Virus record (IMG/VR): IMGVR_UViG_3300027782_006229
Coordinates: 1-64,000 of that record
Length of the DNA stretch: 64,000 bases
Source: a virus
Reading direction: 5' to 3' (one strand)
Shown here: positions 5,284-58,529 of the stretch, piece after piece
How the letters are laid out: every line of letters begins with the position of its first letter
How positions within the stretch are numbered: the first letter of the stretch is position 1
Program-made: the position numbers and the translations under genes
The notes under the pieces: model-generated
Told to the model about the DNA's origin: nothing
The model's database searches: none
What the model saw: only the letters and a program-made list of their open reading frames with translations

Positions 5284-6519
5284 CTATATATTATTCACTA
5301 ACATATAATTATCAATGTGTTCAAGCTTAACTTTTGCATTTAAAGCAGGTCCAATGAAGTGGAGAATCATTTCAGCGCCAGTGGGCGGCTCCATGTTACC
5401 AAAACGCACAACACCTGTTTCAGTATTGCTTAAATTGCCAGTAGGAATGAGTTTTACTTTTTTATCAAACATCACTGAGTTAGTAAGAGCATTTGTACAA
5501 AAATAGTAGTTCATAAATGACTGCTCAAAGAAATATTCACCAGGCCAATTCTGCATAAACCAATTTACATTTTGAAAATGTAATTTCATTTTTGTGGAAT
5601 TTTTAAACAAAAATTGTCCAGCATTGAATGGCATCTGGTTGTTATCTGTTATAACAGTATAGTCAGCATCATTTATCATTGCAAATCCATGATAAAAGCT
5701 TGTTTTGTGAGTATCTAATTTAAGATTTTTATTGTATGCAGTGTAAATTTTGTTGTATTGTATGTTTAAACCAAATACTTCTGAAATATCACGTGTTATA
5801 ATTGTATCTGCATCCAAATACAATATTTTTTCATAGTTGTTTATGTTTTCAAAGTCAAATATTGTTGTTTTAACTGTTGATGCAGCAACACCATCAATTG
5901 GTGTAGATACTAGTTTGTAAGTTACTGCTCTATTGTTTGTACCCAATGCTGTTACAATTTTTTCTTTTGTTGATGCATCTGTAAACACCAAAATATCAAA
6001 GTTTGCAGCATTGCTTAAAGAGTTAATTGATTTGACTAATAGGTTAACATAATTAATGTCACCAAATACTACATAATACAGTAAATTTTTACCAGTACGA
6101 ATGTTTCGACTAGTTGTACTATTCTTAACAGTCAAAGCTTTGGTTCTCACTTGTTCTAACAACTGCCATTTAACTTGCTCTGTATCTTCATATGGAGTGT
6201 TGGTATTTTTACGCATCAATGTTCCGCGATTGTATTCAACACCTGACAATTTTTCAGTACGTGTTGATGCATATCTGCGTAAATCCTCTGCATTAACAGC
6301 TTTATTTTTACTAACAGATATGCTGCTAGTTTCTCCAGTTATAAACTCAATATCGAACGATAAATTTGTAGCTTTATGAAACTCATCGTCATGTAACCCA
6401 ACTGCACCCAAGGCTAATGTCTCTGGTGTGAGTGATACAGAATAGTTGTTAACATTCAAAGTAACTGCATGAATGCTTGATAAATTACTTGTGATTGATT
6501 TTGGAAGTAAAATTTTCAT
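5284..6519 (-). CDS. Glycosyltransferase, GT8-like C-terminal domain, 411 aa
   Basis: Residues about 135-400 form a GT-A glycosyltransferase like family GT8: LLYYVVFGDINYVNLLVKS at the domain start, then the metal-binding DxD in ILYLDADTII near residue 235, and a C-terminal HFIGP histidine motif. The first 130 residues have no recognised fold and are specific to this phage; they may anchor the enzyme or bind the target. The gene is 3 nt from a fibre-type repeat protein downstream and 2 nt from the sulfotransferase, so the block lies among fibre genes. Glycosylation of fibre or capsid proteins is a reasonable inference. Confidence 0.85.
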   Translation of the reverse strand: MKILLPKSITSNLSSIHAVTLNVNNYSVSLTPETLALGAVGLHDDEFHKATNLSFDIEFITGETSSISVSKNKAVNAEDLRRYASTRTEKLSGVEYNRGTLMRKNTNTPYEDTEQVKWQLLEQVRTKALTVKNSTTSRNIRTGKNLLYYVVFGDINYVNLLVKSINSLSNAANFDILVFTDASTKEKIVTALGTNNRAVTYKLVSTPIDGVAASTVKTTIFDFENINNYEKILYLDADTIITRDISEVFGLNIQYNKIYTAYNKNLKLDTHKTSFYHGFAMINDADYTVITDNNQMPFNAGQFLFKNSTKMKLHFQNVNWFMQNWPGEYFFEQSFMNYYFCTNALTNSVMFDKKVKLIPTGNLSNTETGVVRFGNMEPPTGAEMILHFIGPALNAKVKLEHIDNYMLVNNI

Positions 6520-6522
6520 ATA

Positions 6523-7659
6523 TTATGTTGGACAGCTGTTTATACTCTCAACTACACCGTTAATGTCAGTATTAAAGTATGTATTATAACCGTATCGGTA
6601 TAAAGACAATGCGGCTAGCCTACCTCCTAGACCATCATTACTATAAATAATAGTTCCAATACTAATAGATGTAGTTGTAGTATAAAAGTAGGTATTTAAC
6701 AAATCTGGTTGACCACAACCAGAAATATTATATGGCCATGAATACACACAAGCTGCAGTACTGGTGATTGCACCTGTATGTGCAGTATAAAGTATACCAG
6801 CGTAAGCAAATGTAACAAATCCCACCGGTACAGTAAGGTTACTGTCAGTATACACTGCGACACCATTTTGAAGTGTTGAATCTAACCACGCTGTGTAGTA
6901 AGTTGTTGGTGTGCCGCCATCCCTATAGCTATTACAATCAGCATATGTAACCCATGATCTATAACAAGGGTATAATGCTGTAACAGACCCAGCAGTCGCG
7001 TTATAGTTGTAATTACTCCGGACAAAATTACCATTATATTGAATAGTTAATCCTTCATCAGTATATATACTACCACCAGGGAATGGGGTGCTATCATCAC
7101 TCCAAACCGTTGTTCCACCTCCAGACTGATTACAATCACCATAAATTGTAAATTGGTAAGGACATGTAGCTAAACCAGATGCAGCTGAGACTAAACCATT
7201 ACCATCTGTTTGATATCTATAGTAAGTACTGGAACCATCATAATATACGAATAGTGTTTGATTAGCCCATGGTATTATCAATGCTGTATCTGAGTATATA
7301 GTACTAGTAGCTGTCGGTGTTGTTCCAACTTGCGTATATACAGTAGCGCTCGAAAGGAGTGTGCAATCGGTATATACTGTGTATGAACTGTAACAAATTG
7401 CTTTTGTGGTAATTAACCCAGAACCATTAGTTGTGTATGTATAATTTGAATATACAAATGACGTATTCGTAAGTGGTGTTGTTAATGCTGCAGTTGTATA
7501 TACAATGGTACTAGTACCAATATCTATAGGAAACCCAGAGTAAACGTAAATTGTGTATGGAGAACTACCACCACAATTGGGAGATACCGTATATGAATCA
7601 CTAGCAGGAAGGCTACCACGCTTTGAACTAGCTATTATACCAAAAACTACAGGAATCAT
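6523..7659 (-). CDS. Repeat-built appendage protein with paired-cysteine units, 378 aa
   Basis: No named family is certain. The protein consists of about five units of 65-75 residues. Each unit has a VYTD- or IYSD-type strand followed by a TTP- or VP-type turn, then a Y-rich strand, and ends with a cysteine pair such as C-x8-YTDC, C-x7-YGDC or C-x8-YADC. Similar VYTDxxLTxP repeats occur in surface and phage tail proteins, especially of Bacteroidetes. Lysines are almost absent and Y, T and S dominate, as in fibre shafts. It starts 2 nt before the end of the 7661 fibre gene and so belongs to the same transcript. Confidence 0.7.
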   Translation of the reverse strand: MIPVVFGIIASSKRGSLPASDSYTVSPNCGGSSPYTIYVYSGFPIDIGTSTIVYTTAALTTPLTNTSFVYSNYTYTTNGSGLITTKAICYSSYTVYTDCTLLSSATVYTQVGTTPTATSTIYSDTALIIPWANQTLFVYYDGSSTYYRYQTDGNGLVSAASGLATCPYQFTIYGDCNQSGGGTTVWSDDSTPFPGGSIYTDEGLTIQYNGNFVRSNYNYNATAGSVTALYPCYRSWVTYADCNSYRDGGTPTTYYTAWLDSTLQNGVAVYTDSNLTVPVGFVTFAYAGILYTAHTGAITSTAACVYSWPYNISGCGQPDLLNTYFYTTTTSISIGTIIYSNDGLGGRLAALSLYRYGYNTYFNTDINGVVESINSCPT

Positions 7660-7660
7660 G

Positions 7661-8239
7661 TTATTTTAAGTTACCAATCAAATACCAAGTGTTGGTATCT
7701 GTTTTAATTAATGTACCAGCAGCATAATTACCAGCAAGAGATAGTGAATTGTTAAAACTATTGATGGTTACACCAACACCTGCAGATAAAACAGTGTAGT
7801 TGCTGGCTGATTTATTACCTTGCACGACAACCAGTTGTGATCCTGTAGGAAATGCTACTGTATTATTACTTGGTACACCATAATATGTATTTGTACTGAA
7901 TGTATCTATGGTAGTTTTATTAGCATTTGCAAGCGTTAAACGGTAATTTGCAGCTGCTGTACTGCTAACAGATGTTACAAAAGTTGCAGCACTTACTGTA
8001 CCTGTAAATACAGACCAACTACCACTATTTGCTTGAACCGTACTGTAGACTGATGTATTATTTGCACTTTGAGAACTTACTATACTATAAATCGTTAGGG
8101 AACGCTCTAGACCACCAACACTAATTTGATTGAATGCACTGGTTCCCGATAAAACTGTACTAATGTTTAATAACAGACGATCAGTACTAGCAGCAGTAGT
8201 AGTAAGTTGAAGAGATGAAAAGTTTACAGGTGTTGACAT
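7661..8239 (-). CDS. Short tail-fibre protein, 192 aa
   Basis: The first 70 residues are closely similar to those of the repeat fibre at 8626-10146. Both begin with VNFSSLQ, then TTAASTDRLLL, then FNQISVG and ERSLT(I/V)YS. This shared module is probably the attachment domain. The remainder is β-rich and ends with a short strand-turn region typical of a fibre tip. It looks like a truncated or alternative fibre sharing the same docking site as its longer neighbour. Confidence 0.75.
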   Translation of the reverse strand: MSTPVNFSSLQLTTTAASTDRLLLNISTVLSGTSAFNQISVGGLERSLTIYSIVSSQSANNTSVYSTVQANSGSWSVFTGTVSAATFVTSVSSTAAANYRLTLANANKTTIDTFSTNTYYGVPSNNTVAFPTGSQLVVVQGNKSASNYTVLSAGVGVTINSFNNSLSLAGNYAAGTLIKTDTNTWYLIGNLK

Positions 8240-8258
8240 AGAGATAAATTAAAACAGA

Positions 8259-8600
8259 TTAAACTTCATTCAAAGTTACGGTACCATCTGCATGTATAGT
8301 AACAGGTTTATAGTAGTTAGCCATAATACCTGCAGTGCATCCTGGTTTAAGAGATTCAAGATAAGAACGAAGACCTTCTGAAATTACAAACAAATCTTTT
8401 GCATCAGTTCCAAGATATTCTAATGTTTCTTTGGCACCAAAAGCAACACCATTTTCATCTGTTTTTTCACTCCATAGCAACGACATACCAATTTCCCACC
8501 GTCTCAATAAATTATCAAAGCTGTTACGAGTGTAGTCAACTAATGCAGTTGCTGTTTGTTGTTTGATGTCAATTGCATGAGGTGGGTTTAAAATGTTCAT
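8259..8600 (-). CDS. Conserved phage protein among fibre genes, 113 aa
   Basis: A small soluble α-helical protein starting MNILNPPHAIDIKQQTA. Proteins with this N-PPHAID start occur beside fibre genes of several T4-like phages; their function is not known to me. A late box (TATAAATA on the minus strand, 8606-8613) ends 5 nt before the ATG. It lies between two fibres with a common N-terminal domain and may be a fibre assembly factor or a structural adaptor; this is inference from position only. Confidence 0.7.
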   Translation of the reverse strand: MNILNPPHAIDIKQQTATALVDYTRNSFDNLLRRWEIGMSLLWSEKTDENGVAFGAKETLEYLGTDAKDLFVISEGLRSYLESLKPGCTAGIMANYYKPVTIHADGTVTLNEV

Positions 8601-8605
8601 AATAC

Positions 8606-8613
8606 TATTTATA
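8606..8613 (-). promoter_or_regulatory. Late promoter TATAAATA for the 8259-8600 gene
   Basis: An exact T4 late consensus octamer on the minus strand, 5 nt before the ATG at 8600. Confidence 0.7.
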
Positions 8614-8625
8614 TGCTAAACTAGT

Positions 8626-10146
8626 TCATGCAGAATATTTCATTTCTATACCATCAACAACTGCGACCCATCTCCAATTTTCATTTGTAATTCCAGTAAC
8701 TGAAACATTTACAGCACCACCACCAACAGTTATAGTTGCGTCCGTATTAGTATTTCCTTCGTAGGGTGTTGTAATATCTACAACATTTACTGCAGATAAA
8801 GTACCACTTACATTTCTAAGTATTGCTCTTTTATTATATTCTGAAATTGTTGTTCCATCATCTTTAGAACCTATAATTTTGAAATTCAAAGAATATGTAT
8901 AACCACTTTGTAGGGTTATTGGTTGACTTGAACCATCGAGATATAGTTGTGTTGGTGAGTTAGTAGATAAAGTACTATTTCTTAAAGTGTATCTTACATA
9001 TTGTGCATCTCCACGTTCACCAAACATTCCAGATGCATGTGCATATTGACCATACAGCACACTATTGGATTGAAATCCAGACGCAACAGAAATGTATCCT
9101 GCTGCTCTACAGCTTAAGCCACCACCAACTGTTGCATAACTCCCCTCTACAATGTTATAAGCACCACCACCAATTGTTGCTAAAGGACCATTGGTCCTAT
9201 TGAAAAATCCACCACCAATTGTTGCATTAGCACCATCCGCGGTGTTGTAACCACCACCAGCAATTATTGAAGAATCACCATTTGCATTGTTTTGCTGACC
9301 ACCACCCACTGTTGCAGCATAATTAATTGCATAATTTACACCACCACCACCAATGGTTGCATACTGACCTGAAGCAATGTTACTTTGACCACCAGCAACA
9401 GTTGCATAAGTTCCAACAGTTGCTCTGTTATATTGACCACCACCAATTGTTGAATAGGATGCGGTTGCATCGTTATCAGTACCACCACCTACTGTTGATC
9501 TGGGACCTGCGTCGTTAAGTGTACCACCTGCAACAGTCCCTAATTCACCGGCAGTATTGCTAGAACCCCCACCTATTGCTCCATAATCACCACTTGCTCT
9601 GTTTCCATTCCCACCTGCAATCGTTGCAGCTATACCCGGTATTTCATTATATGCTCCACCACCAATTGTTGAATAATTTCCACTTGCAACTTGGGTTGTT
9701 GAATTTCTTAACTTTTGCCAATCTGTTGCATACTGACCTCGTTTATCACCTCCAGAGTTTTGATTATTTGGAATTTGTGCTAGGGTAGCACCAGTACCTT
9801 TAGCTCCTATCACAAAATCAACGTTAGTTACAGCTGAATTAATATTTAATGCATGTGCAGTGGTTACATCATTAGGTGAAGTGATGGAAGATACTTGTGT
9901 AAAAATGGTTAACGCATTATTCCACAATGCAGAACTAGCTCCGACAGTTGTATACGTACCTTGCCAGTTAGCACTCTGTGAGTTAACTGTACTATAAACA
10001 GTTAAAGAACGCTCTATATTACCAACACTAATTTGATTGAATCCAGAAGCTCCAGACAAAGCTGAACTATTTCTTAATAAAAGACGATCAGTACTAGCAG
10101 CAGTAGTAACAGGTTGGAGAGATGAAAAATTTACCGGAAATGACAT
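8626..10146 (-). CDS. Tail fibre with YadA-like head repeats, 506 aa
   Basis: Residues 1-70 are the docking module shared with the 7661 gene. Residues about 160-355 hold roughly 13 tandem units of 14 residues with the pattern x-A-T-(I/V)-G-G-G-x-x-N-x-A-x-G. This is the repeat style of trimeric autotransporter head domains (left-handed β-roll), so the shaft is probably a trimer. A C-terminal region of about 130 residues, starting after VRYTLRNS, is a β-rich tip and the likely receptor-binding part. A late box (10158-10165) lies 11 nt before the ATG. The host adhesion role is inferred from the fold and the position. Confidence 0.85.
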   Translation of the reverse strand: MSFPVNFSSLQPVTTAASTDRLLLRNSSALSGASGFNQISVGNIERSLTVYSTVNSQSANWQGTYTTVGASSALWNNALTIFTQVSSITSPNDVTTAHALNINSAVTNVDFVIGAKGTGATLAQIPNNQNSGGDKRGQYATDWQKLRNSTTQVASGNYSTIGGGAYNEIPGIAATIAGGNGNRASGDYGAIGGGSSNTAGELGTVAGGTLNDAGPRSTVGGGTDNDATASYSTIGGGQYNRATVGTYATVAGGQSNIASGQYATIGGGGVNYAINYAATVGGGQQNNANGDSSIIAGGGYNTADGANATIGGGFFNRTNGPLATIGGGAYNIVEGSYATVGGGLSCRAAGYISVASGFQSNSVLYGQYAHASGMFGERGDAQYVRYTLRNSTLSTNSPTQLYLDGSSQPITLQSGYTYSLNFKIIGSKDDGTTISEYNKRAILRNVSGTLSAVNVVDITTPYEGNTNTDATITVGGGAVNVSVTGITNENWRWVAVVDGIEMKYSA

Positions 10147-21614: not shown

Positions 21615-22477
21615 TTTAATAGTTTCACAATATAACTTTCATAGTCGTTACCAAAGCAAAAAATATCGTACCATCTATCTTGCTTCTTCAAAATAGAATC
21701 TAATTTAAGTTCTTCACAATACAACTTAAATTGTTTGAAATCATGATTTTGTGCAATATCTAATTGCTCTTTATACCATTCATGTTCATCTGCATGCATA
21801 GTATACTTGTCTAATCTAAAAAGACTATAGTTTCTTTTAAACTCTTCGCTTTGCTCAGCTGTAGTTGCATATTCACCATCAAAATATTTTTTAATTTTTT
21901 TCTTACCCATACCAGTTACACCAGGTACGTTATCAGACTTATCACCTCTAAAACATTTTTCAACGAGATAATGCTCTTTTGTAACTTTCATTATATCTAA
22001 AAAGTTATCAGCGGTAATTTCACACTTTTTAATAGGATCATATACAGTAACGTTAGCATTAATGCATTGACATAGGTCTTTATCAACAGTAACTATAACT
22101 TTCTTACCAGGGAGCTCTTTGCAAAGGTAAGCCATGCAGTCATCTGCTTCAAGACGTAACGGGAAGAAGTTTTTTACACCAAGACAGCTTAGTAAATGCT
22201 TAATATGCTCGTTTTTAGAGTGAACTTGAGCACTATATTCACGATCTCGATTACCTTTATAGTCAGCGAACATATCTTTACGTTCGTTTACACCATAATC
22301 CTTCTTTTCATCCCAGCAGCAGTAAATTTTATCAGGTTTAAACTTTTCTACATAGGTTTTAACTGAGTTAAGTACCATATATACATGGAGATAAGAGTCT
22401 TCACCTTTAACTTGGTTGTTAGCTACCCAGAAGCAACGATGCACAAGGTTATTTCCGTCTATAATAAGGGTCTTCAT
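21611..22477 (-). CDS. rnh: 5'-3' exonuclease / RNase H, T4 rnh-like, 288 aa
   Basis: FEN1-type nuclease that removes RNA primers. Seen: LIIDGNNLVHR at residues 4-14, EADDCMAYL near residue 110, VTVDKDLCQ near 128-136, and the helix-hairpin-helix GDKSDNVPGVTGMGKKK near 185. All expected metal-binding acidic residues are present. T4 RNase H is 305 aa. It has its own AGGAAA-class promoter with TATAAT 6 nt before the ATG, although it lies downstream of the DUF1501 gene, so it can be expressed early independently of the late DUF genes. Confidence 0.92.
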   Translation of the reverse strand: MKTLIIDGNNLVHRCFWVANNQVKGEDSYLHVYMVLNSVKTYVEKFKPDKIYCCWDEKKDYGVNERKDMFADYKGNRDREYSAQVHSKNEHIKHLLSCLGVKNFFPLRLEADDCMAYLCKELPGKKVIVTVDKDLCQCINANVTVYDPIKKCEITADNFLDIMKVTKEHYLVEKCFRGDKSDNVPGVTGMGKKKIKKYFDGEYATTAEQSEEFKRNYSLFRLDKYTMHADEHEWYKEQLDIAQNHDFKQFKLYCEELKLDSILKKQDRWYDIFCFGNDYESYIVKLLK

Positions 22478-22483
22478 AACCTT

Positions 22484-22500
22484 ATTATAGACGTTTTCCT
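22484..22500 (-). promoter_or_regulatory. Early promoter AGGAAA-N5-TATAAT for rnh
   Basis: Minus strand: AGGAAA 22500-22495, ACGTC, TATAAT 22489-22484; 6 nt to the ATG at 22477. It lies between the DUF1501 stop and rnh. Confidence 0.75.
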
Positions 22501-22507
22501 TATAAAA

Positions 22508-23743
22508 TCAAGCTAAAAGAGCTTGAACAGGTTTACCTTTATCTGCAACCTTGAATGGTCTGCCTTCTGGTGAGATTACAATTTGATCTACTGGTAATCC
22601 TGCTGCAGCTGCAATAGTAGCATTGAAGTCAGATGGGCTAACAATGTTTTCAACTGATTTCATACCTTTTTCATCAGATTTACCATATGCTTGACCACCT
22701 TTGATACCGGCACCAATGAGTACTCCAGAGAAAGCACCTGGATGGTGGTCTCTACCGTTATTAATGTTAATATTTGGTGTTCTACCAAAGTCTGTTGCAA
22801 TTACAATAAGGGTTTTATCATAAAGCCCAGATGCTTTAAGGTCTTCAATGAGAGCATTAACAGCTTGATCAAGAATCTTAAGTTTACCTTCAAGAGATTC
22901 AAAGTTATTAACGTGAGTATCCCAACCACCATCAGTAACTTCAATAAACTTACAATTACCTTGTTCAATTAAACGTTTTGCTAAGCAAACACCTTGACCA
23001 AAACGATTATTACCGTATTTGTCTCTGGTTACTTGATCTACCTTAGAAAGATCGAAGACATCAAGCTCATTTGAATTAAGAAGACGAATTGTTTGGTCAT
23101 AAAACTCAGCATATGACTTTTGAGCTGGGTTAACAATCTTATTAGCATCTTTTTCAAGCTTATCTAAGATTTCAATTCTCTTAGAAAACTCTGCTGCATT
23201 TTTAAGCTTAGTATTATCAAGACCTCTCATTGGATCTGCTATTGGAATAGGAGAATACTTTTTAGGCATCCAACCAGAACCAGGATGATCAGCACCACCG
23301 CCGATTAAAACGTTTTGAGGTACAACTTTTGGTTTATTATCCTCTGTATAATGACACATCCATGCTCCCATATTAGGGTGAACGATTGTACCAATCTTCT
23401 TGAATGATGTTTTTTGTAAATACTGTGCTGCAGCGTGATCACCTGTTGTAACCATCATAGAACGAACAACAGCCATCTTATCACCATGTTTTGCCATGAG
23501 AGGAAGGTGTTCTGAAATCTGATAACCAGCATTAGTGTTAATTGGATTGAATACACCCTTTACTTCTGCATGTGCTTTTGGATCAAATGTATCCAAATGG
23601 CTCATACCACCATTCATAAAGAGGTAAATGATATGTTCTGCTTTTTTACCTGCAGGAGCAGCTGCTACATGTGGTAGAACGGTTACACCTAAGCCTGCTG
23701 ATGCAAGATTAAGCACGAAATTACGTCTTGTTAAGTTATTCAT
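22508..23743 (-). CDS. DUF1501 family protein with Tat signal, 411 aa
   Basis: DUF1501 proteins belong to the alkaline-phosphatase-like superfamily and are abundant in Planctomycetes and Verrucomicrobia, nearly always next to DUF1549/DUF1553 genes; their substrate is not established. Seen: a twin-arginine signal (TRRNFVLN, residues 5-12, then a hydrophobic stretch to AAAPA), LFMNGGMSHLDTFDP near residues 41-55, GGWDTHVNN near 272, ATDFGRTPN near 317 and GRDHHPGAFSGVLIGAG near 330. The length is normal for the family, and the motifs look intact. It is 8 nt from the DUF1549 gene upstream and has a late box AATAAATA 9 nt before its ATG. A phage location is unexpected. Confidence 0.9.
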   Translation of the reverse strand: MNNLTRRNFVLNLASAGLGVTVLPHVAAAPAGKKAEHIIYLFMNGGMSHLDTFDPKAHAEVKGVFNPINTNAGYQISEHLPLMAKHGDKMAVVRSMMVTTGDHAAAQYLQKTSFKKIGTIVHPNMGAWMCHYTEDNKPKVVPQNVLIGGGADHPGSGWMPKKYSPIPIADPMRGLDNTKLKNAAEFSKRIEILDKLEKDANKIVNPAQKSYAEFYDQTIRLLNSNELDVFDLSKVDQVTRDKYGNNRFGQGVCLAKRLIEQGNCKFIEVTDGGWDTHVNNFESLEGKLKILDQAVNALIEDLKASGLYDKTLIVIATDFGRTPNININNGRDHHPGAFSGVLIGAGIKGGQAYGKSDEKGMKSVENIVSPSDFNATIAAAAGLPVDQIVISPEGRPFKVADKGKPVQALLA

Positions 23744-23751
23744 GGCTTTTA

Positions 23752-25539
23752 TTATTTATTGAATTTGAACTCCGAACTATTAACTAGTGCCCAGATGATG
23801 TCATCATCCTGAACACCAACAAACTTACTTTTTTCATCAATTGTTGGTTTTCTAACCAATATAGACTTAAAAATAACATCAATTGTATCAGCTGGTGATT
23901 TGCCTGTAAGTGTTTTTGCAAGATTTGTGTCTTTATTGATTGCAACTTCAGCTAATTGACCATTCATAAAAGAAATAACTTGTGTAACTGAACCTTCCTT
24001 TGAAGATGTATCAATTAATTCTCTATCACTACGACCAAGTTGTTCAAGAATCGTATTAACTGGATTGTTATCATTAACTTCAGACGCTCTCACTAGAGGG
24101 TAGTTACGATATTTTGGAGCTGTTTCATATTTTGAACGAATCACCTTTTGATATTCTTCATTTTTAGCTTTTAATTTATCAATTGCCAAATCTTCGATAC
24201 TATATCTCATTATTTTAACATATTCATCTTGGAAAGTTAACTTAAATGTTTCAGGCTTAGCAATAGCGATAGACATAACTGAATCCCACAATTGCTCTGC
24301 TGTTAAACGTTGTTTGACTGGTCCAATGAACACAAATTTATCTGTATTAGTATACATGCCGTCATAGAGTTCTCTTTGAAACAATGTTGTATTGTAAAGA
24401 ACATACAGGAATTGCTTAGTATCATAGTTAACGTCTACCATAATCTTAGCAAGAGTGTTCATAAGCTCACCATTAAGCTCTTTTTCATCGTGAATATTAT
24501 CATAGTTATCCATTATATGTTTACCAAACACCCATTTCCAGTAACGATTAGCAATGTTTTTAGTGAATGTTGGATGATTTGGGTTAACTAACCAGCTAAT
24601 AACATCCTTTCTCATATCAACCTTATTGTTAATTTCAGTCTTACCAGAAAGGACTGCAGGTATAACAACATCGCCTGGTTTTGCATCTTTATAATTGTAA
24701 TCATGAGGTAGTTTCAATACACGCTTTTCATCTACTTCAATATTAGATCTCATAGCATTAACAAAGTTGTTAATAGTATTGTTTAACCCACGGTTCTTTA
24801 TAGGATCAGCTTTAATTATAGCATCAATTTCTTCTCTCAAAGCTTTCTGACGAGCTGCTACCGCTGGATCTTTATCTTTACCACGACCTCTAAGTTCTAT
24901 CTGGGTAAACATAGCAGCCATCTTATAAAACTGCATTTGGGTGAAGTCTTGGAAAGGATCATCATGGCATTGTGCACAACCAATATCGGTTCCCATGAAT
25001 ACTTTACCTGTACCAATAAGGTTATCTAATGGCATTCCTAAATCACGATAGAAGTATCCTGTTGCTGGGTTATCATAATATGAACCTGTTGATGTTAACA
25101 GATCTGTAACAAACTTTGAATAAGATTTGTTAGCTGTGATTGAGTCTTTAACATAATCAATGTAAGGACCACCAGAAAAATTGTTAGTGGTGTTAATTCT
25201 ATCACGCAATCTTAATGATTCAGCCCAGAAGTTAAACATATGTGATGTATAACCTGGATGGTTCATAAGAAACTGTATTAAACCTCGTCTCTTATTAGGG
25301 TCTGTTGCTTTATTAAACAAGTCATACTCTTCATAGGTTGGATTTCTACCAATTATTGTAAGATACGCTCGTCGTAAAAATTTATCATCATCAATTTTAC
25401 CAAGTGGTATAACATTAGCTGCTACGTATTGTTTTTGTAACACAGAATCAATATTACTACTGTATGTGTTAAGTTGATCTAAAGTTGCACCAAATGATAG
25501 AGCGCAAACACTTACTAATATAGCTATAAGTTTTTTCAT
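23752..25539 (-). CDS. DUF1549/DUF1553 (PSCyt2-PSD1) exported protein, 595 aa
   Basis: Seen: a Sec signal peptide (MKKLIAILVSVCALSFGA), then the DUF1549 region starting DDKFLRRAYLTIIGRNPT and containing a c-type haem motif GCAQCHDDPFQDF near residues 186-198, then a DUF1553 region from RKDVISWLVNPNHP (about 325) through NRYWKWVFGKHI to the C-terminus. Known: this architecture is typical of planctomycete and verrucomicrobial genomes, paired with DUF1501. The host partner protein usually follows directly, exactly as here. The N-terminal domain is shorter than many host versions, which often carry an extra PSCyt1 domain. A late box ATTAAATA lies 13 nt before the ATG. Haem attachment would need host cytochrome maturation. 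Confidence 0.9.
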   Translation of the reverse strand: MKKLIAILVSVCALSFGATLDQLNTYSSNIDSVLQKQYVAANVIPLGKIDDDKFLRRAYLTIIGRNPTYEEYDLFNKATDPNKRRGLIQFLMNHPGYTSHMFNFWAESLRLRDRINTTNNFSGGPYIDYVKDSITANKSYSKFVTDLLTSTGSYYDNPATGYFYRDLGMPLDNLIGTGKVFMGTDIGCAQCHDDPFQDFTQMQFYKMAAMFTQIELRGRGKDKDPAVAARQKALREEIDAIIKADPIKNRGLNNTINNFVNAMRSNIEVDEKRVLKLPHDYNYKDAKPGDVVIPAVLSGKTEINNKVDMRKDVISWLVNPNHPTFTKNIANRYWKWVFGKHIMDNYDNIHDEKELNGELMNTLAKIMVDVNYDTKQFLYVLYNTTLFQRELYDGMYTNTDKFVFIGPVKQRLTAEQLWDSVMSIAIAKPETFKLTFQDEYVKIMRYSIEDLAIDKLKAKNEEYQKVIRSKYETAPKYRNYPLVRASEVNDNNPVNTILEQLGRSDRELIDTSSKEGSVTQVISFMNGQLAEVAINKDTNLAKTLTGKSPADTIDVIFKSILVRKPTIDEKSKFVGVQDDDIIWALVNSSEFKFNK

Positions 25540-33801: not shown

Positions 33802-34854
33802 ATGAATTTTAATTCTCTCGTTACCAAACTAGAAATCCTTGAAGAAGCTAAAACTGGCCGCTTTGAAAAGCTCTTCCAAACAGGCTACCTTAAAAAAGCT
33901 ATTGAAGATAAAAAACTTGGTACAGCAAGACCGTTAATGTTTGAATTTATTATTAACTTTTTGAAAGAGAAGGGTGTAGTACCAGATGAAACATATTTTA
34001 AAGGTTCACGCGCTGCTGCTGACGCAGGTGAATTTATTAAAAATCTTATTGATACAGGTTTACTTAAAGATGAAATTGCTGATGAATTCAACGAGTATAT
34101 AAAAACTAATTTAGGTGACTGGATTGGACTTAAAGTGAGATCTTTACGTGAACGCGGTAAAGGACAAAATCGTGGTAAAACATTCGGATCTGCTGAAGAA
34201 TTTAACGCATTTAAAAATGTTAAAACCAAAGAAGAAATGGATGCTGAAAAGCAAGCTGCAAAAGATAAAAAACAAGCTGCAGCTGACGATACATCACCGA
34301 TAGCCCCTTATGAGTTTACCGATTATTTAGTTAATATAGTATCTAAGGTACCTCTAGATATTAAACTAGTAGCTAGAATTTTAACAGCTGCAAGTAATGG
34401 TAAATCAGTTAATGTGGATGATACTAGCACACCTACTAATATTGATATATCTTTAGATCCTGAATCAGCAATTGTAGATAAGGTTAAAAAGAACGGTGCA
34501 GATGCAACAGCTGACTCACTTTTAAAAGTATTGCCGAAATATTTAAAAGTTGATGCTGAAGATATGGAAATTTTTATAAGCTCACCACATACAATGGATA
34601 TTGAATCTGAGTTTGAATCTAAAAAACCAAAAACTAAAGCTCAACGAACTGGTGTTGATTTACAAGGTTATGGAATGGGTACTATTGCTCCAGATGACTC
34701 TGAGAGACGTCTTGCAAACCCATTTGAAGATGAGGAAGTCCTTGTTCAAAATGAAAACCACAAACCAAAAGTGACATTCATTTCAACCAAGGACCGTTTT
34801 AAGCCAGCAAATTCCTGGCAACAAGCTGCTAGAGCGGAGATGTTTTACAAATAA
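33802..34854 (+). CDS. Late head-interior-type protein, 350 aa
   Basis: It begins MNFNSLVTKLEILEEAKTG, a variant of the short capsid-targeting-like peptide found on other late genes here. The body is α-helical and charged, with an Ala/Lys/Gln-rich coiled segment near residues 140-165 and no recognised domain. It stands alone on the plus strand among early genes, with its own late box, and its 3' end overlaps queC by 10 nt. Packaging into the head is inferred only from the N-terminus and promoter type. Confidence 0.65.
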   Translation: MNFNSLVTKLEILEEAKTGRFEKLFQTGYLKKAIEDKKLGTARPLMFEFIINFLKEKGVVPDETYFKGSRAAADAGEFIKNLIDTGLLKDEIADEFNEYIKTNLGDWIGLKVRSLRERGKGQNRGKTFGSAEEFNAFKNVKTKEEMDAEKQAAKDKKQAAADDTSPIAPYEFTDYLVNIVSKVPLDIKLVARILTAASNGKSVNVDDTSTPTNIDISLDPESAIVDKVKKNGADATADSLLKVLPKYLKVDAEDMEIFISSPHTMDIESEFESKKPKTKAQRTGVDLQGYGMGTIAPDDSERRLANPFEDEEVLVQNENHKPKVTFISTKDRFKPANSWQQAARAEMFYK

Positions 34855-35582
34855 GTCTCATAAGGGATTTTTTTGCAGTTATGCTTAACCCATACAGACG
34901 ATAAGTCTTGTTTATATTCGATTGGATCAATATAACCTGCTGAAACAAATCCAGCTAACCTTAAACTACTAGAAGGTGAATAAGCATCTGCTTTATCTTC
35001 ACCTGCATAGCAAGTCCAAGTATCGCTAAACTTCACACCAAGTCTAATACCCTCTTCAATAATCTCTTTTTTAGACATTGTAATTAGAGGAGCTTCAACT
35101 TTAATGCGATGCTCTCGATTTAAGTCAGCAACTGCATTGATTGCATCTAGAAACTCAGGGCTTCCATCCCAATAACCTGCTAATGAATCAACTTGAGCTG
35201 CTCCATACCAAACTGTGCTCGCTCCAACTCCTTCTGCATATGATAGAAGGTAAGTAATAAAAAGCATATTACGGAATGCAACGTAGCTTTTCGGTTGAGC
35301 CTCACCTCTCATCTCTCTAACGTCTGGTGTATCAATATCTAGATTAGTTAGAGAAGAAGTTGGTGCTAATACATCTAGTGGTGTATTAATAATTTTCATT
35401 TTGATAATTTTCTTATGACCTACACGGCGTATAAGTTGTTTATGAGCGCAATCTAGTTCTTTTTTATGTCTTTGACCATAATCAAAAAATAAACAATAAA
35501 TTTCATCAAACTGTTCAATCGCTTTTTGAAGTAGGACAGAAGAATCCATACCACCAGAGAATGCTAATACTATTTTCGACAT
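34845..35582 (-). CDS. queC: QueC-like 7-cyano-7-deazaguanine synthase lacking the zinc-site cysteines, 245 aa
   Basis: QueC converts 7-carboxy-7-deazaguanine to preQ0 using ATP and ammonia. Seen: the PP-loop FSGGMDSS at residues 8-15, YGQRHKKEL near 35, and the C-terminal block TWTCYAGE followed by LRLAGF. Normal QueC has four zinc cysteines (C...CGxCxxC). Here only C191 remains; the CGxCxxC part reads AYSPSSS (residues 200-206). The rest of the fold is intact, so this may be a zinc-free variant. It is 2 nt from a thioredoxin gene and close to a separate glutamine amidotransferase. Confidence 0.85.
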   Translation of the reverse strand: MSKIVLAFSGGMDSSVLLQKAIEQFDEIYCLFFDYGQRHKKELDCAHKQLIRRVGHKKIIKMKIINTPLDVLAPTSSLTNLDIDTPDVREMRGEAQPKSYVAFRNMLFITYLLSYAEGVGASTVWYGAAQVDSLAGYWDGSPEFLDAINAVADLNREHRIKVEAPLITMSKKEIIEEGIRLGVKFSDTWTCYAGEDKADAYSPSSSLRLAGFVSAGYIDPIEYKQDLSSVWVKHNCKKIPYETYL

Positions 35583-53454: not shown

Positions 53455-53550
53455 TGGTACTCCAGGCCGGGATCGAACCGACAACCGCGGCCTAATCTGG
53501 GCCATACGAAAGGTATAAGCTTTCCGCTCTGCCAATTGAGCTACTGGAGT
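53455..53550 (-). tRNA. tRNA, anticodon TAT (Ile, AUA) by geometry, with a 25-nt variable region
   Basis: 96 nt including encoded CCA. The acceptor stem ACTCCAG/CTGGAGT, D-arm, a 5-bp anticodon stem GAAAG/CTTTC with loop CTTATAC, and a normal TTCGATC T-loop are present. An extra GGCC-CAGATTA-GGCC hairpin occupies the variable region, which is unusual for Ile. Confidence 0.7.
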
Positions 53551-53588
53551 GTTATTAAATTTAATGTCTTTATTTTACAGATCAACTA

Positions 53589-54182
53589 TTAGTTTTTTAA
53601 ATCTTCAAAATCGTTGTAAATATGCTGGTATGTTTGTCCAGCTTCCTCAGTTTGAGGTGTAAAATATTCTGATGTTATAGCTGTATTTTTAGCTTTTTCT
53701 CCAGCAGCATTAATCTGATCATTAAAATCGTCAATTTGATCACGATTAGGATTTCTTAAACTAGATAGTTCATGATCTAGTTGATCGAGCAATGATGTAT
53801 CACCATTACGTCTTGCTTCCATTTTCTGTCTCATTAATGAATGACGTTTTTTATTAAACTCAGGTTCCGCATGCAACTCATTCATTTTAGCTCTTAACGG
53901 TTGTGTTACTGGCCACATGATGTTTTGATGGAAAAACAAACTTAATGTTTGTAGTAGCTTTGATAATTTTTTATCACGATGTTCACCAGATGGTCCTATT
54001 CCATGTTTATTCATCGTATATAAAGATAGATAAGACACTTTATCAGCGAATTCTTTTAAAGTCATCGGTTTACCAGTTCTAGTGTCGGTGGTAATCGATT
54101 GCAAAAACTCTTCAATTGTATTGAAGTTTGGTTCTGCAAGTTCGTAACTCTCGTTAAAATAAAATTGACTAAATGTTATCAT
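53589..54182 (-). CDS. Late protein with capsid-targeting-like N-terminus, 197 aa
   Basis: It starts MITFSQFYFNESYELAEPNF, again the shared peptide. The remainder is α-helical and hydrophilic (residues 85-150 rich in R, K, E), with no recognised domain. A late-type AATAAATA (54189-54196) is 6 nt before the ATG. Confidence 0.65.
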   Translation of the reverse strand: MITFSQFYFNESYELAEPNFNTIEEFLQSITTDTRTGKPMTLKEFADKVSYLSLYTMNKHGIGPSGEHRDKKLSKLLQTLSLFFHQNIMWPVTQPLRAKMNELHAEPEFNKKRHSLMRQKMEARRNGDTSLLDQLDHELSSLRNPNRDQIDDFNDQINAAGEKAKNTAITSEYFTPQTEEAGQTYQHIYNDFEDLKN

Positions 54183-54188
54183 CTATGT

Positions 54189-54196
54189 TATTTATT
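54189..54196 (-). promoter_or_regulatory. Late promoter AATAAATA for the 53589 gene
   Basis: Minus strand, 6 nt before the ATG at 54182. Confidence 0.55.
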
Positions 54197-54239
54197 TAAT
54201 GCAGGGGTTTTACGTGATTAACCTGCAACCACTTTTAAC

Positions 54240-55256
54240 TTACTTATTGTAAATATCAAGTAAGTTAAACTTGAGATTTGGTCCATTAGTAAAGATTTCA
54301 CCAGCAGATTTATTCAAGCGCATTGCAGTATCATTACCAATAACACTACGTTCATGACTTGCAAGATTGGTAGCAAGGTTGAATACATCATATAGATTTT
54401 CATCTGTATAAATAAACTTCTGACGTTTTGCGCTAAAGTTATCAACTGAATGACCAGCGTTATGGAAGTCAGCAACAATACTTGAATATTGAGGCATAAA
54501 ACGTTCACGAGATTCTTTATTAAGTTGACTTGCAACACAATTGACTTCATATAGAGAGGCTCGAGCATTTCGTAGAGCATCAACGCGAGGTTTAACACTG
54601 CTAATTATACTATCGTTATTAGCGAATTTCAAAAATTGCTTACCGATATTCTTACTAACAGCTGCCACACGATATGCAAGTTGCTCACGAGTAGTCATAC
54701 CATTTGTGCACATAAGACGCAAAAAGTAATTTGCAAATTGCTGACTTGCGTGACCAATAATAGAGGTTGCTCCGAACTTCCAAAGATCACCGAGGCCGCA
54801 ATTAATATCATCACCACCAACAGTATGCACTTCTACATTACACGTTTCGCTATTCCATTCGATACGTTGCAGGTTGTGATTAATATTTTCGTCAATAGTA
54901 TTGAAGAGCTCATCAAGACGTTCATCAAAATTGAGTTGAGTATTTTCTTTTACGTTAGAATTAACTAGCGTATTAACGTTATTATTGTGATCAACAATAC
55001 AGGTAAACTGCTTATTTTTATCAATAGTATTCAATGCGGTACGAATTGAATCCCAATTTTCTGCTGGCTTTGCAAAAATCTCTTTTGAAAGATTTGTACG
55101 AATACCGATTGCATCCATAATTCGCCTGGTATTGGTCGTTGAGTACTTATCAGCGATAATAAGTCGATTATGCTCACATGTAATATGCTGAGTATTAAAA
55201 GGTACGATTGTGTGTTGCTTTACTTTGTCTTTTACTTGTTCTAATGTATTTGTCAT
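54240..55256 (-). CDS. DUF932-like conserved phage protein, 338 aa
   Basis: The central region FANYFLRLMCTNGMTTREQLAYR (landmark LRLMCTNGMTT near residue 188) resembles the DUF932 family widespread in phages and plasmids; function is unproven, often linked to DNA-related processes. It has an AGGAAA-class promoter 35 nt upstream, leaving a short leader, unlike the other early genes. A stem-loop (TGCAGG/CCTGCA, 54200-54226) lies downstream of its stop. Confidence 0.65.
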   Translation of the reverse strand: MTNTLEQVKDKVKQHTIVPFNTQHITCEHNRLIIADKYSTTNTRRIMDAIGIRTNLSKEIFAKPAENWDSIRTALNTIDKNKQFTCIVDHNNNVNTLVNSNVKENTQLNFDERLDELFNTIDENINHNLQRIEWNSETCNVEVHTVGGDDINCGLGDLWKFGATSIIGHASQQFANYFLRLMCTNGMTTREQLAYRVAAVSKNIGKQFLKFANNDSIISSVKPRVDALRNARASLYEVNCVASQLNKESRERFMPQYSSIVADFHNAGHSVDNFSAKRQKFIYTDENLYDVFNLATNLASHERSVIGNDTAMRLNKSAGEIFTNGPNLKFNLLDIYNK

Positions 55257-55290
55257 ATATTTTGTAGTAATTGTTTTGTTACTTACTACT

Positions 55291-55307
55291 ATTATAATGT
55301 ATTTCCT
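55291..55307 (-). promoter_or_regulatory. Early promoter AGGAAA-N5-TATAAT for the 54240 gene
   Basis: Minus strand: AGGAAA 55307-55302, TACAT, TATAAT 55296-55291. The ATG is 34 nt further on. Confidence 0.7.
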
Positions 55308-55349
55308 TTAGAGTTCCACTATTGTTTTAAATTTTGATCTAACACCAAA

Positions 55350-55357
55350 CATAAATA
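55350..55357 (+). promoter_or_regulatory. Late promoter CATAAATA for two tiny membrane proteins
   Basis: The box ends 5 nt before the ATG at 55363. Confidence 0.55.
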
Positions 55358-55362
55358 ATGAT

Positions 55363-55449
55363 ATGAATGTCCTTGAAATATTAGAAATGTTTTTAGGACT
55401 TTTTTGCATTACTGCAATCTTCATCGCTATAGCAAAAGTTTTGCCTTAG
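55363..55449 (+). CDS. Tiny single-TM protein, 28 aa
   Basis: Translation of 55363-55449: MNVLEILEMFLGLFCITAIF followed by IAIAKVLP. After a short acidic start nearly the whole chain is one membrane helix. It is supported by a late box with the exact 5-nt spacing seen elsewhere. A second tiny TM gene follows 17 nt later. It could be a small holin-, antiholin- or membrane-regulator-like peptide; no homology is claimed. Confidence 0.6.
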   Translation: MNVLEILEMFLGLFCITAIFIAIAKVLP

Positions 55450-55466
55450 CTTGAACTGCAGTCCTT

Positions 55467-55547
55467 ATGGACTATTTATTTATAATTTTAGGAATTTTTG
55501 GCATTGCGTTGGGCTTGTACCTCATTGCAACAGCCAACCATCAATGA
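55467..55547 (+). CDS. Tiny single-TM protein, 26 aa
   Basis: Translation: MDYLFIILGIFGIALGLYLI then ATANHQ. It is a single hydrophobic helix with a short polar tail. It lies 17 nt after the 28-aa TM gene and its last 7 nt overlap the convergent 55541 gene. No box of its own is seen, so it probably shares the late transcript. Confidence 0.55.
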   Translation: MDYLFIILGIFGIALGLYLIATANHQ

Positions 55548-56323
55548 TGTTGTTGCACCTGTTCATACAGTGCAATTAAATTTTTCATGTCAGTGGTGTG
55601 ATGATCAACTGCAAGTTTGTATCCGTGCTGTTCAGAACCACCCTGCGGCGCACCTCCAAGATAATCTGCTGGAGAGTATTCAATGCTGTTAGCATATGCT
55701 TTTTCTTTTTTCTTTTCACCCATTTCACTCTTGACAACCTTGATTGCATCGTTGATAACTGAATCAATAGTGCTTATTATTTCTCGATCACCGTGAAATA
55801 ACCCTTTATCTATCATTTTTTCAGCAGGGTACAATACTCTTGGTTCACCCATTGCGTTTTTAAAATAAATGTCACCGGCTGAATGATATTTAGGATCTTT
55901 TAAAAACTCCATGGCTTTGTCTAGAGGGTGCTGCACAAATTGTTCGACATCTTCTGGTGTAAAATTTTTATTACTTGGAAATTTATCTAATAGTGTTTCT
56001 TGTACATAATCTGCAAATGTATCCCCATCTTTTGCAACATAATTCACAATTGCTTTTGCTAATTCATCATTTATTTTGATTGAACTCAATTGTTGATTTG
56101 CTTTTTGTGCAAATATTTTTGCGTTATCACTAGTGGTAATAGTCGAAAAAATATTATACCAATCGCCTTTTTTAAATCTACCAATGTTGATTGTAGCACC
56201 TTTTAATCCGCTGCCAACAGATGAAAGTCTTTTTGCTGCAGGTAAAGCTTGTATTGGTTTAGCAAAAGAAGCTATCAATGTACCAATCATTTTTTTGAGA
56301 ATATTTCTGCGTGAATCCATCAT
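55541..56323 (-). CDS. Late protein with twin-arginine-like signal, 260 aa
   Basis: The N-terminus MMDSRRNILKKMIGTLIASF fits the Tat pattern (S-R-R-N-I-L-K, then a hydrophobic stretch and ALPAA). The mature part has no recognised domain; it is mixed α/β and ends in a His-rich tail (VDHHTTDM, QQHH). TATAAATA lies exactly 5 nt before the ATG, so it is late. Together with the two DUF1501 proteins this is the third late product with a Tat-like signal. Alternatively the start may be a head-targeting peptide. Confidence 0.65.
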   Translation of the reverse strand: MMDSRRNILKKMIGTLIASFAKPIQALPAAKRLSSVGSGLKGATINIGRFKKGDWYNIFSTITTSDNAKIFAQKANQQLSSIKINDELAKAIVNYVAKDGDTFADYVQETLLDKFPSNKNFTPEDVEQFVQHPLDKAMEFLKDPKYHSAGDIYFKNAMGEPRVLYPAEKMIDKGLFHGDREIISTIDSVINDAIKVVKSEMGEKKKEKAYANSIEYSPADYLGGAPQGGSEQHGYKLAVDHHTTDMKNLIALYEQVQQHH

Positions 56324-56328
56324 GCATA

Positions 56329-56336
56329 TATTTATA
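56329..56336 (-). promoter_or_regulatory. Late promoter TATAAATA for the 55541 gene
   Basis: An exact octamer, 5 nt before the ATG at 56323. Confidence 0.65.
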
Positions 56337-56390
56337 TAAAAATTTGTTAGATTTTAAATTTATAAATACCTCATTGCAACTGCCAGATGA

Positions 56391-56633
56391 TCATATATCG
56401 AAGAACCCTTCAGCTTTAAGATATTTTTCAACTTTCATAAAGAAATTAATGTCTTGCAATGAGGGGTAATCCACATACTCTTTAGAAATATCACTGCCCT
56501 CAAAATCTAAGGATGCAATGTATTGTAATGTTAGATTTAAATTTGCTCTACATTTTCGTCCATGAAAATCAAATACTATGTTTCTTCGTAAACACTTGTT
56601 GAGCATTTGTTGTAATGTTTCTTCTTCTTTCAT
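56391..56633 (-). CDS. Small protein placed 9 nt after a tRNA, 80 aa
   Basis: The start MKEEETLQQML at 56633 is used; a longer frame runs into tRNA-Leu. No family is recognised. It has a basic centre (RRNIVFDFHGRKCRAN) and a hydrophilic helical rest. The ATG is 9 nt from the CCA end of tRNA-Leu(TAA), so tRNA 3' processing would leave a near-leaderless mRNA. Confidence 0.6.
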   Translation of the reverse strand: MKEEETLQQMLNKCLRRNIVFDFHGRKCRANLNLTLQYIASLDFEGSDISKEYVDYPSLQDINFFMKVEKYLKAEGFFDI

Positions 56634-56642
56634 GTAGTAAAT

Positions 56643-56719
56643 TGGTACCCTGAGTCGGATTCGAACCGACAACACACGGATCTTAAATCCGATGCATCTA
56701 CCAATTGTGCTACCAGGGC
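56643..56719 (-). tRNA. tRNA-Leu(TAA), class I shape
   Basis: 77 nt with CCA. Loop TTTAAGA gives TAA. The variable region is only 5 nt, although Leu tRNAs normally have a long variable arm. Canonical T-loop TTCGAAT. Confidence 0.8.
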
Positions 56720-56727
56720 ATTGAAAG

Positions 56728-56802
56728 TGGTTCTCTTGGATGGTAATGCTCCATCTTAGATCGCTTCACAGGCGATGACATTACTTTTATGATACGAAGA
56801 GA
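56728..56802 (-). tRNA. tRNA-His(GTG) with altered T-loop
   Basis: 75 nt with CCA. The anticodon arm ATCGC-CTGTGAA-GCGAT is clean. The T-arm GATGG-AGCATTA-CCATC has loop AGCATTA rather than TTCRANY, and the D-loop has AGTA and no GG. No G at position -1 is encoded. Confidence 0.7.
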
Positions 56803-56811
56803 TTTTGAAAG

Positions 56812-56886
56812 TGGTACCTGGTGCGGGAATCGAACCCACATAAAGGCTTTAGAAGAGCCTTGTCCTATCCGTTGAACGAACCAGGC
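56812..56886 (-). tRNA. tRNA-Arg(TCT)
   Basis: 75 nt with CCA. Acceptor GCCTGGT/ACCAGGT; loop CTTCTAA; T-loop TTCGATT. Confidence 0.9.
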
Positions 56887-56894
56887 ATTTAAAT

Positions 56895-56969
56895 TGGAGC
56901 GCAATCAGGGAATCAAACCCTGCTAAGCGATTTTGCAGACCGCCACCTACATCAGCTGGCTCATTGCGC
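56895..56969 (-). tRNA. tRNA-Cys(GCA)
   Basis: 75 nt with CCA. Perfect acceptor GCGCAAT/ATTGCGC; loop CTGCAAA; discriminator T as expected for Cys. Confidence 0.9.
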
Positions 56970-57329
56970 ATTTGAAAATTGTTGACACTCTATTGAGTAG
57001 CTAATTCAACGAGTGCCTCAGAAACCATTCAATGAGCTTGTGCAAGCGCACCCAGTCAGACGTGAATCTGAACAGCCAAAGTGCCAGGAACAGCAACGAA
57101 ACTGACAGTTAGTTGAATATTTCTGAATATCGATAGCCGGTGAGGTATCCAAGAGTATCTGGTCTATCTACAGATCCCTCTCTGCCCATTCTCCGTTTGT
57201 AATATACACTTCATAATGCTTCCGTCCAGTATTATCATACTTTGCATTGCAATGCATTTCAGGTCTTACCCGGCCCCTCACATTATTTTCTCATTACACG
57301 CAACCTGCGTCTTTCCTTACTATCAAAAT
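56970..57329. other. 360-nt gap in the tRNA array, structured, function unknown
   Basis: No complete tRNA is found. It contains small hairpins (GCTTG-TG-CAAGC near 57035; TCAGA-CGTGAA-TCTGA near 57055; palindrome GCATTGCAATGC near 57243) and a possible 29-codon ORF (57168-57257). A small non-coding RNA or remnants of tRNAs are possible. Confidence 0.4.
57168..57257 (-). CDS. Possible 29-aa ORF in the tRNA-array gap
   Basis: Translation starts MHCNAKYDNTGRKHYEVYIT and ends NGEWAERDL. The composition is protein-like (charged, Y-rich) rather than random, but there is no promoter box or coupling to support it. Confidence 0.3.
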   Translation of the reverse strand: MHCNAKYDNTGRKHYEVYITNGEWAERDL

Positions 57330-57404
57330 TGGTGGAGCGTAAGGGATTCGAACCCTTTCTTCAACCGTGCAAGGATCATGTGCTACCATTATCACTAACG
57401 CCCC
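57330..57404 (-). tRNA. tRNA-Ala(TGC)
   Basis: 75 nt with CCA. Acceptor GGGGCGT/ACGCTCC; loop CTTGCAC; anticodon stem contains three G-T pairs. Confidence 0.85.
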
Positions 57405-57410
57405 ATAAAA

Positions 57411-57485
57411 TGGTACCCGAAGTAGGATTCAAACCTACAACAATCCGCGTGTAAGGCGGGCGCTCTATCGTTGAGCTATTCGGGC
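57411..57485 (-). tRNA. tRNA-Val(TAC)
   Basis: 75 nt with CCA. Acceptor GCCCGAA/TTCGGGT; loop CTTACAC; T-loop TTTGAAT. Confidence 0.9.
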
Positions 57486-57492
57486 AATTTAC

Positions 57493-57690
57493 CTACTCTG
57501 AAACTTTTGTCTCTTTACGAGCATTTTTCTCTGCTGTAATTTCATTACGACGAGCTTTAGCTAGTACGATAATCTCTTGTAGACGCTTTCGTGCGTTTGT
57601 ACTTGCAGATGATTTACCGTTGATGAATTTTTCATCATCAATTGCAAAAGCTTCAGTTAGTTCTTTAAGTTGGTCATATGTTTTTGTCAT
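57493..57690 (-). CDS. Histone H1-like Hc1 family protein, 65 aa
   Basis: Hc1-type proteins bind and condense DNA in Chlamydiae and occur in Bacteroidetes and other PVC bacteria. Seen: YDQLKELTEAFAIDDEKF then SSASTNARKRLQEIIVLAKA, which parallels the Hc1 N-terminal pattern L ... DxEKF..G.K...TRARK.LQEIK.LA. The lysine-rich C-terminal tail of full Hc1 is nearly absent. It has its own AGGAAA-class promoter with TATAAT 5 nt before the ATG, within the tRNA array, so it is expressed early. It may act on host DNA; that is inference. Confidence 0.75.
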   Translation of the reverse strand: MTKTYDQLKELTEAFAIDDEKFINGKSSASTNARKRLQEIIVLAKARRNEITAEKNARKETKVSE

Positions 57691-57695
57691 ACTTT

Positions 57696-57712
57696 ATTAT
57701 AATATCTTTCCT
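57696..57712 (-). promoter_or_regulatory. Early promoter AGGAAA-N5-TATAAT for the Hc1-like gene
   Basis: Minus strand: AGGAAA 57712-57707, GATAT, TATAAT 57701-57696; 5 nt to the ATG at 57690. Confidence 0.75.
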
Positions 57713-57732
57713 ATCTGAATCAACTATTAAAT

Positions 57733-57807
57733 TGGCTCCCCAGGTACGGTTCGAACGTACGACATGACGGTTAACAGCCGTCCGCTCTACCACTGAGCTA
57801 CTGGGGA
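57733..57807 (-). tRNA. tRNA-Asn(GTT)
   Basis: 75 nt with CCA. Acceptor TCCCCAG/CTGGGGA; arm GACGG-CTGTTAA-CCGTC; discriminator G. Confidence 0.92.
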
Positions 57808-58145: not shown

Positions 58146-58150
58146 AAAAT

Positions 58151-58224: not shown

Positions 58225-58233
58225 ATTTGAAAT

Positions 58234-58311: not shown

Positions 58312-58320
58312 ATTTGAAAT

Positions 58321-58397: not shown

Positions 58398-58418
58398 ATT
58401 TAAATTAATTACTCTTTT

Positions 58419-58435: not shown

Positions 58436-58443
58436 TTTGAAAT

Positions 58444-58520: not shown

Positions 58521-58529
58521 TTTTGAAAT

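Follow-up and report, generated by a model that had tools for sequence, protein, structure and literature searches.

DUF1501 proteins, and proteins that combine the PSCyt2 (DUF1549) and PSD1 (DUF1553) domains, are known from PVC bacteria, where they are without known function (PMC5615132; PMC2754498), and some PSCyt genes include modules for carbohydrate binding (PMC5615132). In some other bacteria the partner of DUF1501 is DUF1800, and the two lie next to chitin synthases (PMC5122149). Late promoters of marine T4-like phages follow the motif NATAAATA (PMC2984593). Here, we analyse a 64-kb stretch (the window) out of an 84,841-base IMG/VR virus record, in which a PSCyt2-PSD1 gene and a DUF1501 gene lie side by side. 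The pair is a host-derived auxiliary module in T4-like phages; in the literature searched no phage DUF1501 or PSCyt2-PSD1 was described, except for a weak CDD match in a 61-aa ZC03 protein.

Results

The window encodes gp32-, clamp-, helicase- and primase-like proteins, the replication genes of a T4-type phage. Within it, PSCyt2-PSD1 lies upstream of the first DUF1501 gene (DUF1501a), with 8 bp between the two ORFs (table 1). The flanks are T4-type: genes for a gp45-like clamp and a gp32-like protein on one side, and for an RNase H-like exonuclease (rnh, with a TATAAT about 10 nt before it) and a primase on the other. An initial annotation of this DNA had described both ORFs as full length, and ORF positions and Pfam searches agree; the motifs that it listed (the TRRNF twin arginine, GGMSHLDTFDP, DFGRTP and CAQCH) are all present. 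A second DUF1501 gene, DUF1501b, had been missed. DUF1501a and DUF1501b score 326.7 and 364.3 bits against a Pfam gathering cut-off of 27, both over model positions 1-390 (full length); the PSCyt2/DUF1549 and PSD1/DUF1553 domains of the partner reach 120.7 bits (cut-off 29.8) and 88.2 bits (cut-off 28.5). The twin-arginine motif, from which a putative Tat-type signal is read, is nearly invariant over 104 viral and cellular DUF1501 rows. The columns H103, D275, H277, E/D318, R321, D332 and H333 are likewise nearly invariant in cellular DUF1501 and retained in viral copies; together with G45, these family-wide residues are present in both DUF1501 copies of the window.

Elsewhere the window holds 23 tRNA genes (53455-60400), most of them in a dense array, with GC up to 0.45, above the rest of the window. 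Two proteins (34845-35582 and 61409-62020) read by eye like QueC and GTP cyclohydrolase I of the 7-deazaguanine pathway, and a protein in the fibre region (8626-10146) has many degenerate ATIGGG/AxVAGG repeats that, by eye, resemble trimeric autotransporter head repeats.

Table 1. Features of the gene pair and of the second DUF1501 gene, in window coordinates
Feature	Position	Strand	Evidence and remarks
DUF1501a protein, 411 aa	22508..23743	-	Pfam PF07394, E 3.1e-97; Tat-type N-terminus; alkaline-phosphatase-superfamily-like; conserved residues kept
R331-D332-H333 of DUF1501a	22745..22753	-	Candidate catalytic or metal residues, from conservation
D318-F-G-R-T-P of DUF1501a	22775..22792	-	Aligns with sulfatase Asp-His/Asn metal motif (profile alignment, PDB sulfatase sequences); conserved
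D275-x-H277 of DUF1501a	22913..22921	-	Candidate metal ligands; D275 invariant, H277 in 44/44 viral and 57/60 cellular sequences
GGMSHLDTFDP motif of DUF1501a, residues 45-55	23579..23611	-	Sequence and alignments
Tat-type twin-arginine signal of DUF1501a, TRRNF..AAA	23657..23743	-	Read from the sequence; R6 and R7 hardly vary among viral and cellular rows
Late-promoter-like box AATAAATA	23753..23760	-	17 nt before DUF1501a; overlaps PSCyt2-PSD1 stop codon; fits consensus NATAAATA
PSCyt2-PSD1 (DUF1549+DUF1553) protein, 595 aa	23752..25539	-	PF07583, E 1.1e-34; PF07587, E 7.6e-25; Sec-type signal; CxxCH
CAQCH of PSCyt2-PSD1, residues 188-192	24964..24978	-	Putative c-type haem motif; invariant in 12/12 aligned viral sequences
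DUF1501b protein, 418 aa	31163..32419	+	PF07394, E 1.1e-108; Tat-type N-terminus; divergent from DUF1501a

A search of other viral contigs, as proposed with the initial annotation, found the two genes, again in this order, on about 30 more (contigs are given L numbers below). In scans of viral contigs DUF1501a was found at 25 loci, PSCyt2-PSD1 at 19 and DUF1501b at no fewer than 80; a profile scan lifted the PSCyt2-PSD1 loci to 38. Where a locus is long enough for both genes, PSCyt2-PSD1 in nearly all cases immediately precedes DUF1501 and shares its strand; the records with the pair include contigs of 184, 197 and 225 kb. A chimeric assembly of host DNA, the objection foreseen with the initial annotation, is excluded by independent viral contigs of the same arrangement, the near-identical L003, L040 and L046 and the related 184-kb L005. 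Neither gene of the pair has a match in INPHARED, a phage collection of which 2,615 records match the window's DNA polymerase; no full-length DUF1501 was found in it, and DUF1501b gave one partial match there, covering 29%, in an unannotated 6.9-kb faecal record. PHROGs gave no family match for DUF1501a, PSCyt2-PSD1 or DUF1501b. The initial picture of a viral, predictedly exported pair of PVC type, with intact motifs and late-type signals and absent from annotated phages, is thereby upheld.

The best cellular relatives of DUF1501a, at 45-46% identity, belong to Verrucomicrobiota and some planctomycetes. Most of the PVC genomes recovered have PSCyt2-PSD1 directly upstream of DUF1501, in the order and strand of the phage genes; therefore, what the phage has is a copied cellular operon. 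In the DUF1501a tree the viral sequences group in one clade (support 99), as do the viral PSCyt2-PSD1 sequences in theirs (99), and the deepest branches follow each other alike in both trees (L024, L027, rest). L058, nested with Opitutia in both trees, represents a separate, independent capture of the pair. Thus, the trees show one old capture from Verrucomicrobiota-like bacteria, with co-inheritance since, plus the separate event in L058. What suggests PVC hosts for these phages is the ancestry of the genes, together with a few passengers of PVC type, among which an EF-hand protein of L024 and a pseudopilin of L085 (see below) are counted.

DUF1501b has a different history. Its closest cellular relatives are from Pirellulales (about 56-59% identity in the Pirellulales genome search and tree). 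A single viral origin was rejected (AU p 8.5e-6, tree test), and DUF1501b, as its tree indicates, entered phages several times from Pirellulales-like donors. The family as a whole entered phages repeatedly, with Pirellulales among the apparent donors, and capture of the pair was not a lone event but one among several for DUF1501. Viruses have 1-4 DUF1501 copies, against 10-79 per PVC genome (four genomes searched). In L119 (7811-17313), L089, L097, L120 and others, up to four paralogues per contig lie within 6-10 kb, with small exported proteins and repetitive, fibre-like genes in between. L085 encodes a planctomycete-type DUF1559 (SBP_bac_10) pseudopilin with an N-methylation motif (7239-8219; E 4.6e-50).

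Against close relatives, the dN/dS of the pair is 0.01-0.15, in the same range as the helicase, clamp and gp32 genes, where only low-dS comparisons were trusted, gene-level dS being saturated in many others. Compared with L004, the pair is 91-95% identical in DNA and the flanking genes 60-84%, and sliding identity rises from about 0.67 to above 0.9 only between about 25,400 and 22,400. Since the rise is confined to the pair, the pair was exchanged as a block; this block corresponds to L004 positions 5796-8827 and to 22400-25450 of the window. These comparisons of aligned genes show a pair under purifying selection that moved between diverged phages as one recombining block. Decaying passengers were rejected on dN/dS and intact frames.

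The genomic setting of the pair varies. It lies in replication clusters in the window, L005 and L009 and beside the capsid cluster in L006 and, by gene sizes, in L011, L012, L014 and L020; in L006, as in look-alike contigs, portal, protease, scaffold and capsid genes follow it (Gp20, portal, E 1e-97; Gp23, major capsid, E 2e-91). The replication-operon setting first described is thus true of the window's own lineage and not of other phages, where the pair sits elsewhere, and for this reason the replication context is incidental. Peptidoglycan hydrolase genes occur within 2 kb of the pair in six contigs, encoding Amidase_2 (L017, L024, L248 and L254), Amidase_2 with lysozyme (L252) or NlpC/P60 (L027), whereas the nearest one detected is 59-70 kb away in L005 (window's lineage) and L006. 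With both far-hydrolase lineages included, the combined p for proximity is about 0.0004-0.003, in a post hoc test that was devised after the pattern had been seen and in which lineages D and E may share ancestry. Neighbours of the pair are also enriched in signal/TM-like proteins by a crude rule (61/327 vs 30/339, p 2.7e-4). This recurrent proximity to hydrolases, together with the exported neighbours, lends support to the envelope or lysis direction of the initial annotation. A holin-like gene precedes DUF1501b in L006, L011 and L013 (sub-threshold holin matches; phrog_126, best E 1e-4, and Pfam sub-threshold). Its product is a conserved membrane protein of 109-112 aa, encoded directly upstream of DUF1501b (L006:5464-5799, L011:4576-4914 and L013:4410-4739).

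In the window phage, NATAAATA is linked to gene starts (12 of 71 genes vs 0.67 expected, p 8e-13). The box before DUF1501a also encodes the C-terminus of the upstream gene (F-N-K-stop); taken alone it is weak evidence, because the coding constraint of the PSCyt2-PSD1 end could yield it. Late boxes had initially been claimed before both genes. The match before DUF1501a is exact, but before PSCyt2-PSD1 the window has only the degenerate ATTAAATA; an exact NATAAATA stands there in 7 of 15 relatives (L013, L014, L019, L020, L248, L252 and L254). The strict T4 box TATAAATA is absent before the pair, and the wider NATAAATA revealed the real motif. Late timing of the pair's expression is supported by these predicted boxes, and late timing in vivo would be expected.

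The structure model of DUF1501 is of low confidence (pLDDT 56). Its best Foldseek matches in the PDB are LtaS-type phosphoglycerol transferases and sulfatases, at a TM score of about 0.36, with LtaS-type 2w8d on top (E 1.6e-4, a weak match), and no nucleophile is assignable in it. Sulfatase (20.4 bits, cut-off 25) and Phosphodiest (17.7 bits, cut-off 23) both remain below the Pfam cut-offs in DUF1501. With a weak superfamily match of such a model and with sub-threshold family scores, the active alkaline-phosphatase-like enzyme of the initial annotation is better called putative, as are the haem binding and the release of phosphate or sulfate that it suggested. We know of no catalytic activity for any DUF1501. 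In our preferred reading, DUF1501 would probably be a hydrolase of alkaline-phosphatase fold, and its partner the CxxCH protein. The PSCyt2-PSD1 model (pLDDT 75) gave no PDB fold match at E <= 0.001, only weak phycobilisome-linker matches. In L058 (4900-7044) and L027 (8191-9996) the N-terminal part of PSCyt2 is weakly similar to phycobilisome linker and DUF4214 domains (E 2.8e-6 and 0.0012).

Discussion

Taken together, the boxes, the neighbourhoods, the fold matches and the D318 motif favour an exported, late, envelope-acting hydrolase module. We give a probability of roughly 40% to the reading in which T4-like phages that infect PVC bacteria have in the pair an exported envelope module of host origin, made late and aiding lysis or surface clearing. 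An ancestor acquired both genes, PSCyt2-PSD1 and after it DUF1501, as one intact unit from a Verrucomicrobiota-like host; purifying selection has preserved the unit, which was shuffled among phages as one block, and these phages gained further DUF1501 paralogues from planctomycetes. Made mainly in the late phase, DUF1501 would be exported folded via Tat and PSCyt2-PSD1 via Sec. Outside the cytoplasm DUF1501 may act as an enzyme of the alkaline-phosphatase superfamily, a hydrolase or transferase that depends on metal, partnered by PSCyt2-PSD1 with its putative haem, on phospho- or sulfo-esters of a host envelope or capsule polymer. The outcome would be easier release of particles at the endolysin/holin step, or a cleared surface to which progeny do not adhere; these two seem the likeliest benefits of the pair. 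A more specific version, possible but doubtful, is a widespread and new lysis-accessory envelope-exit system, where a Tat-exported DUF1501 and its Sec-exported CxxCH partner would disrupt or remove an envelope layer that is found only in PVC bacteria. If true, it would be the first functional handle on the DUF1501 and PSCyt2-PSD1 families, massively duplicated in PVC bacteria.

Other roles can be proposed for the same data. Host nutrient genes are common in T4-like phages, and an exported pair that frees phosphate or sulfate from periplasmic organic esters for viral DNA and protein synthesis, comparable to cyanophage phosphate-stress genes, would suit the weak alkaline-phosphatase-superfamily affinity of DUF1501 and the place of the pair among replication genes in the window. 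Yet the pair has a late-type box, is not in an early cluster and elsewhere stands beside structural or lysis genes; a simple phosphatase needs no two-protein unit with a CxxCH partner, and the many copies already present in PVC hosts also make nutrient scavenging unlikely. Being exported, with a signal/TM-rich neighbourhood, the proteins might instead change the host surface and so block adsorption of sibling phages, and the repeated, independent capture of different paralogues is what varying receptors would lead one to expect. Superinfection exclusion genes, however, are typically early and small, and with a late-type box at DUF1501 in the window we find such a role rather unlikely.

The late boxes, and the DUF1501 paralogues of L119 among genes with repetitive, fibre-like sequences, would also agree with enzymes built into the tail or baseplate and acting at entry. 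We consider this improbable, given that Tat and Sec signals are conserved, which implies that the infected cell exports the proteins, that the supposed fibre genes are without family match and that the conserved gene order copies a cellular operon. Finally, the tens of copies in PVC genomes make chance capture easy, but host genes acquired in this way and carried as non-adaptive passengers are hard to reconcile with such low dN/dS, with one old, deeply diverged clade (identity about 50%) whose frames are intact, or with exchange as a unit; this explanation is already largely refuted and deserves very little credit.

The exported envelope module, the reading that we prefer, would have implications beyond the window. 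A large group of uncultured T4-like viruses carries the pair and probably acts with it on the envelope of the host in the late phase. Planctomycete and verrucomicrobial genomes have tens of copies of DUF1501 and PSCyt2-PSD1, whose function is not known; a phage in which a single pair, minimal and streamlined, is maintained by strong selection narrows the function problem to two proteins and hints at the site. The pair can serve, too, as a marker for the phages of PVC bacteria, few of which are in culture.

Among known systems, the PSCyt2-PSD1 and DUF1501 operons of PVC bacteria resemble the phage pair in domains, gene order, strand, conserved residues and export. Nonetheless, PSCyt2-PSD1 of the window-clade phages is shorter (577-615 aa vs about 710-750 aa) and lacks the N-terminal PSCyt1 domain present in some relatives; the phage pair has a late phage-type box, and a virus has a few DUF1501 genes where a host genome has tens. 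The DUF1501/DUF1800 pair of other bacteria shares with it a DUF1501 protein with a partner, the Tat motif and export, but the phage partner is a DUF1549/DUF1553 protein. DUF1501 differs from the alkaline phosphatase superfamily (sulfatases, LtaS-type transferases) in having no assigned nucleophile and sub-threshold Sulfatase and Phosphodiest scores, on a low-confidence model, and is linked to it by the weak structural match and a local profile alignment at the Asp motif. Unlike the auxiliary genes of T4-like cyanophages, the pair has different hosts and constitutes an exported two-protein module of unknown function; like them, it consists of host genes kept under selection and has NATAAATA late boxes (PMC2984593).
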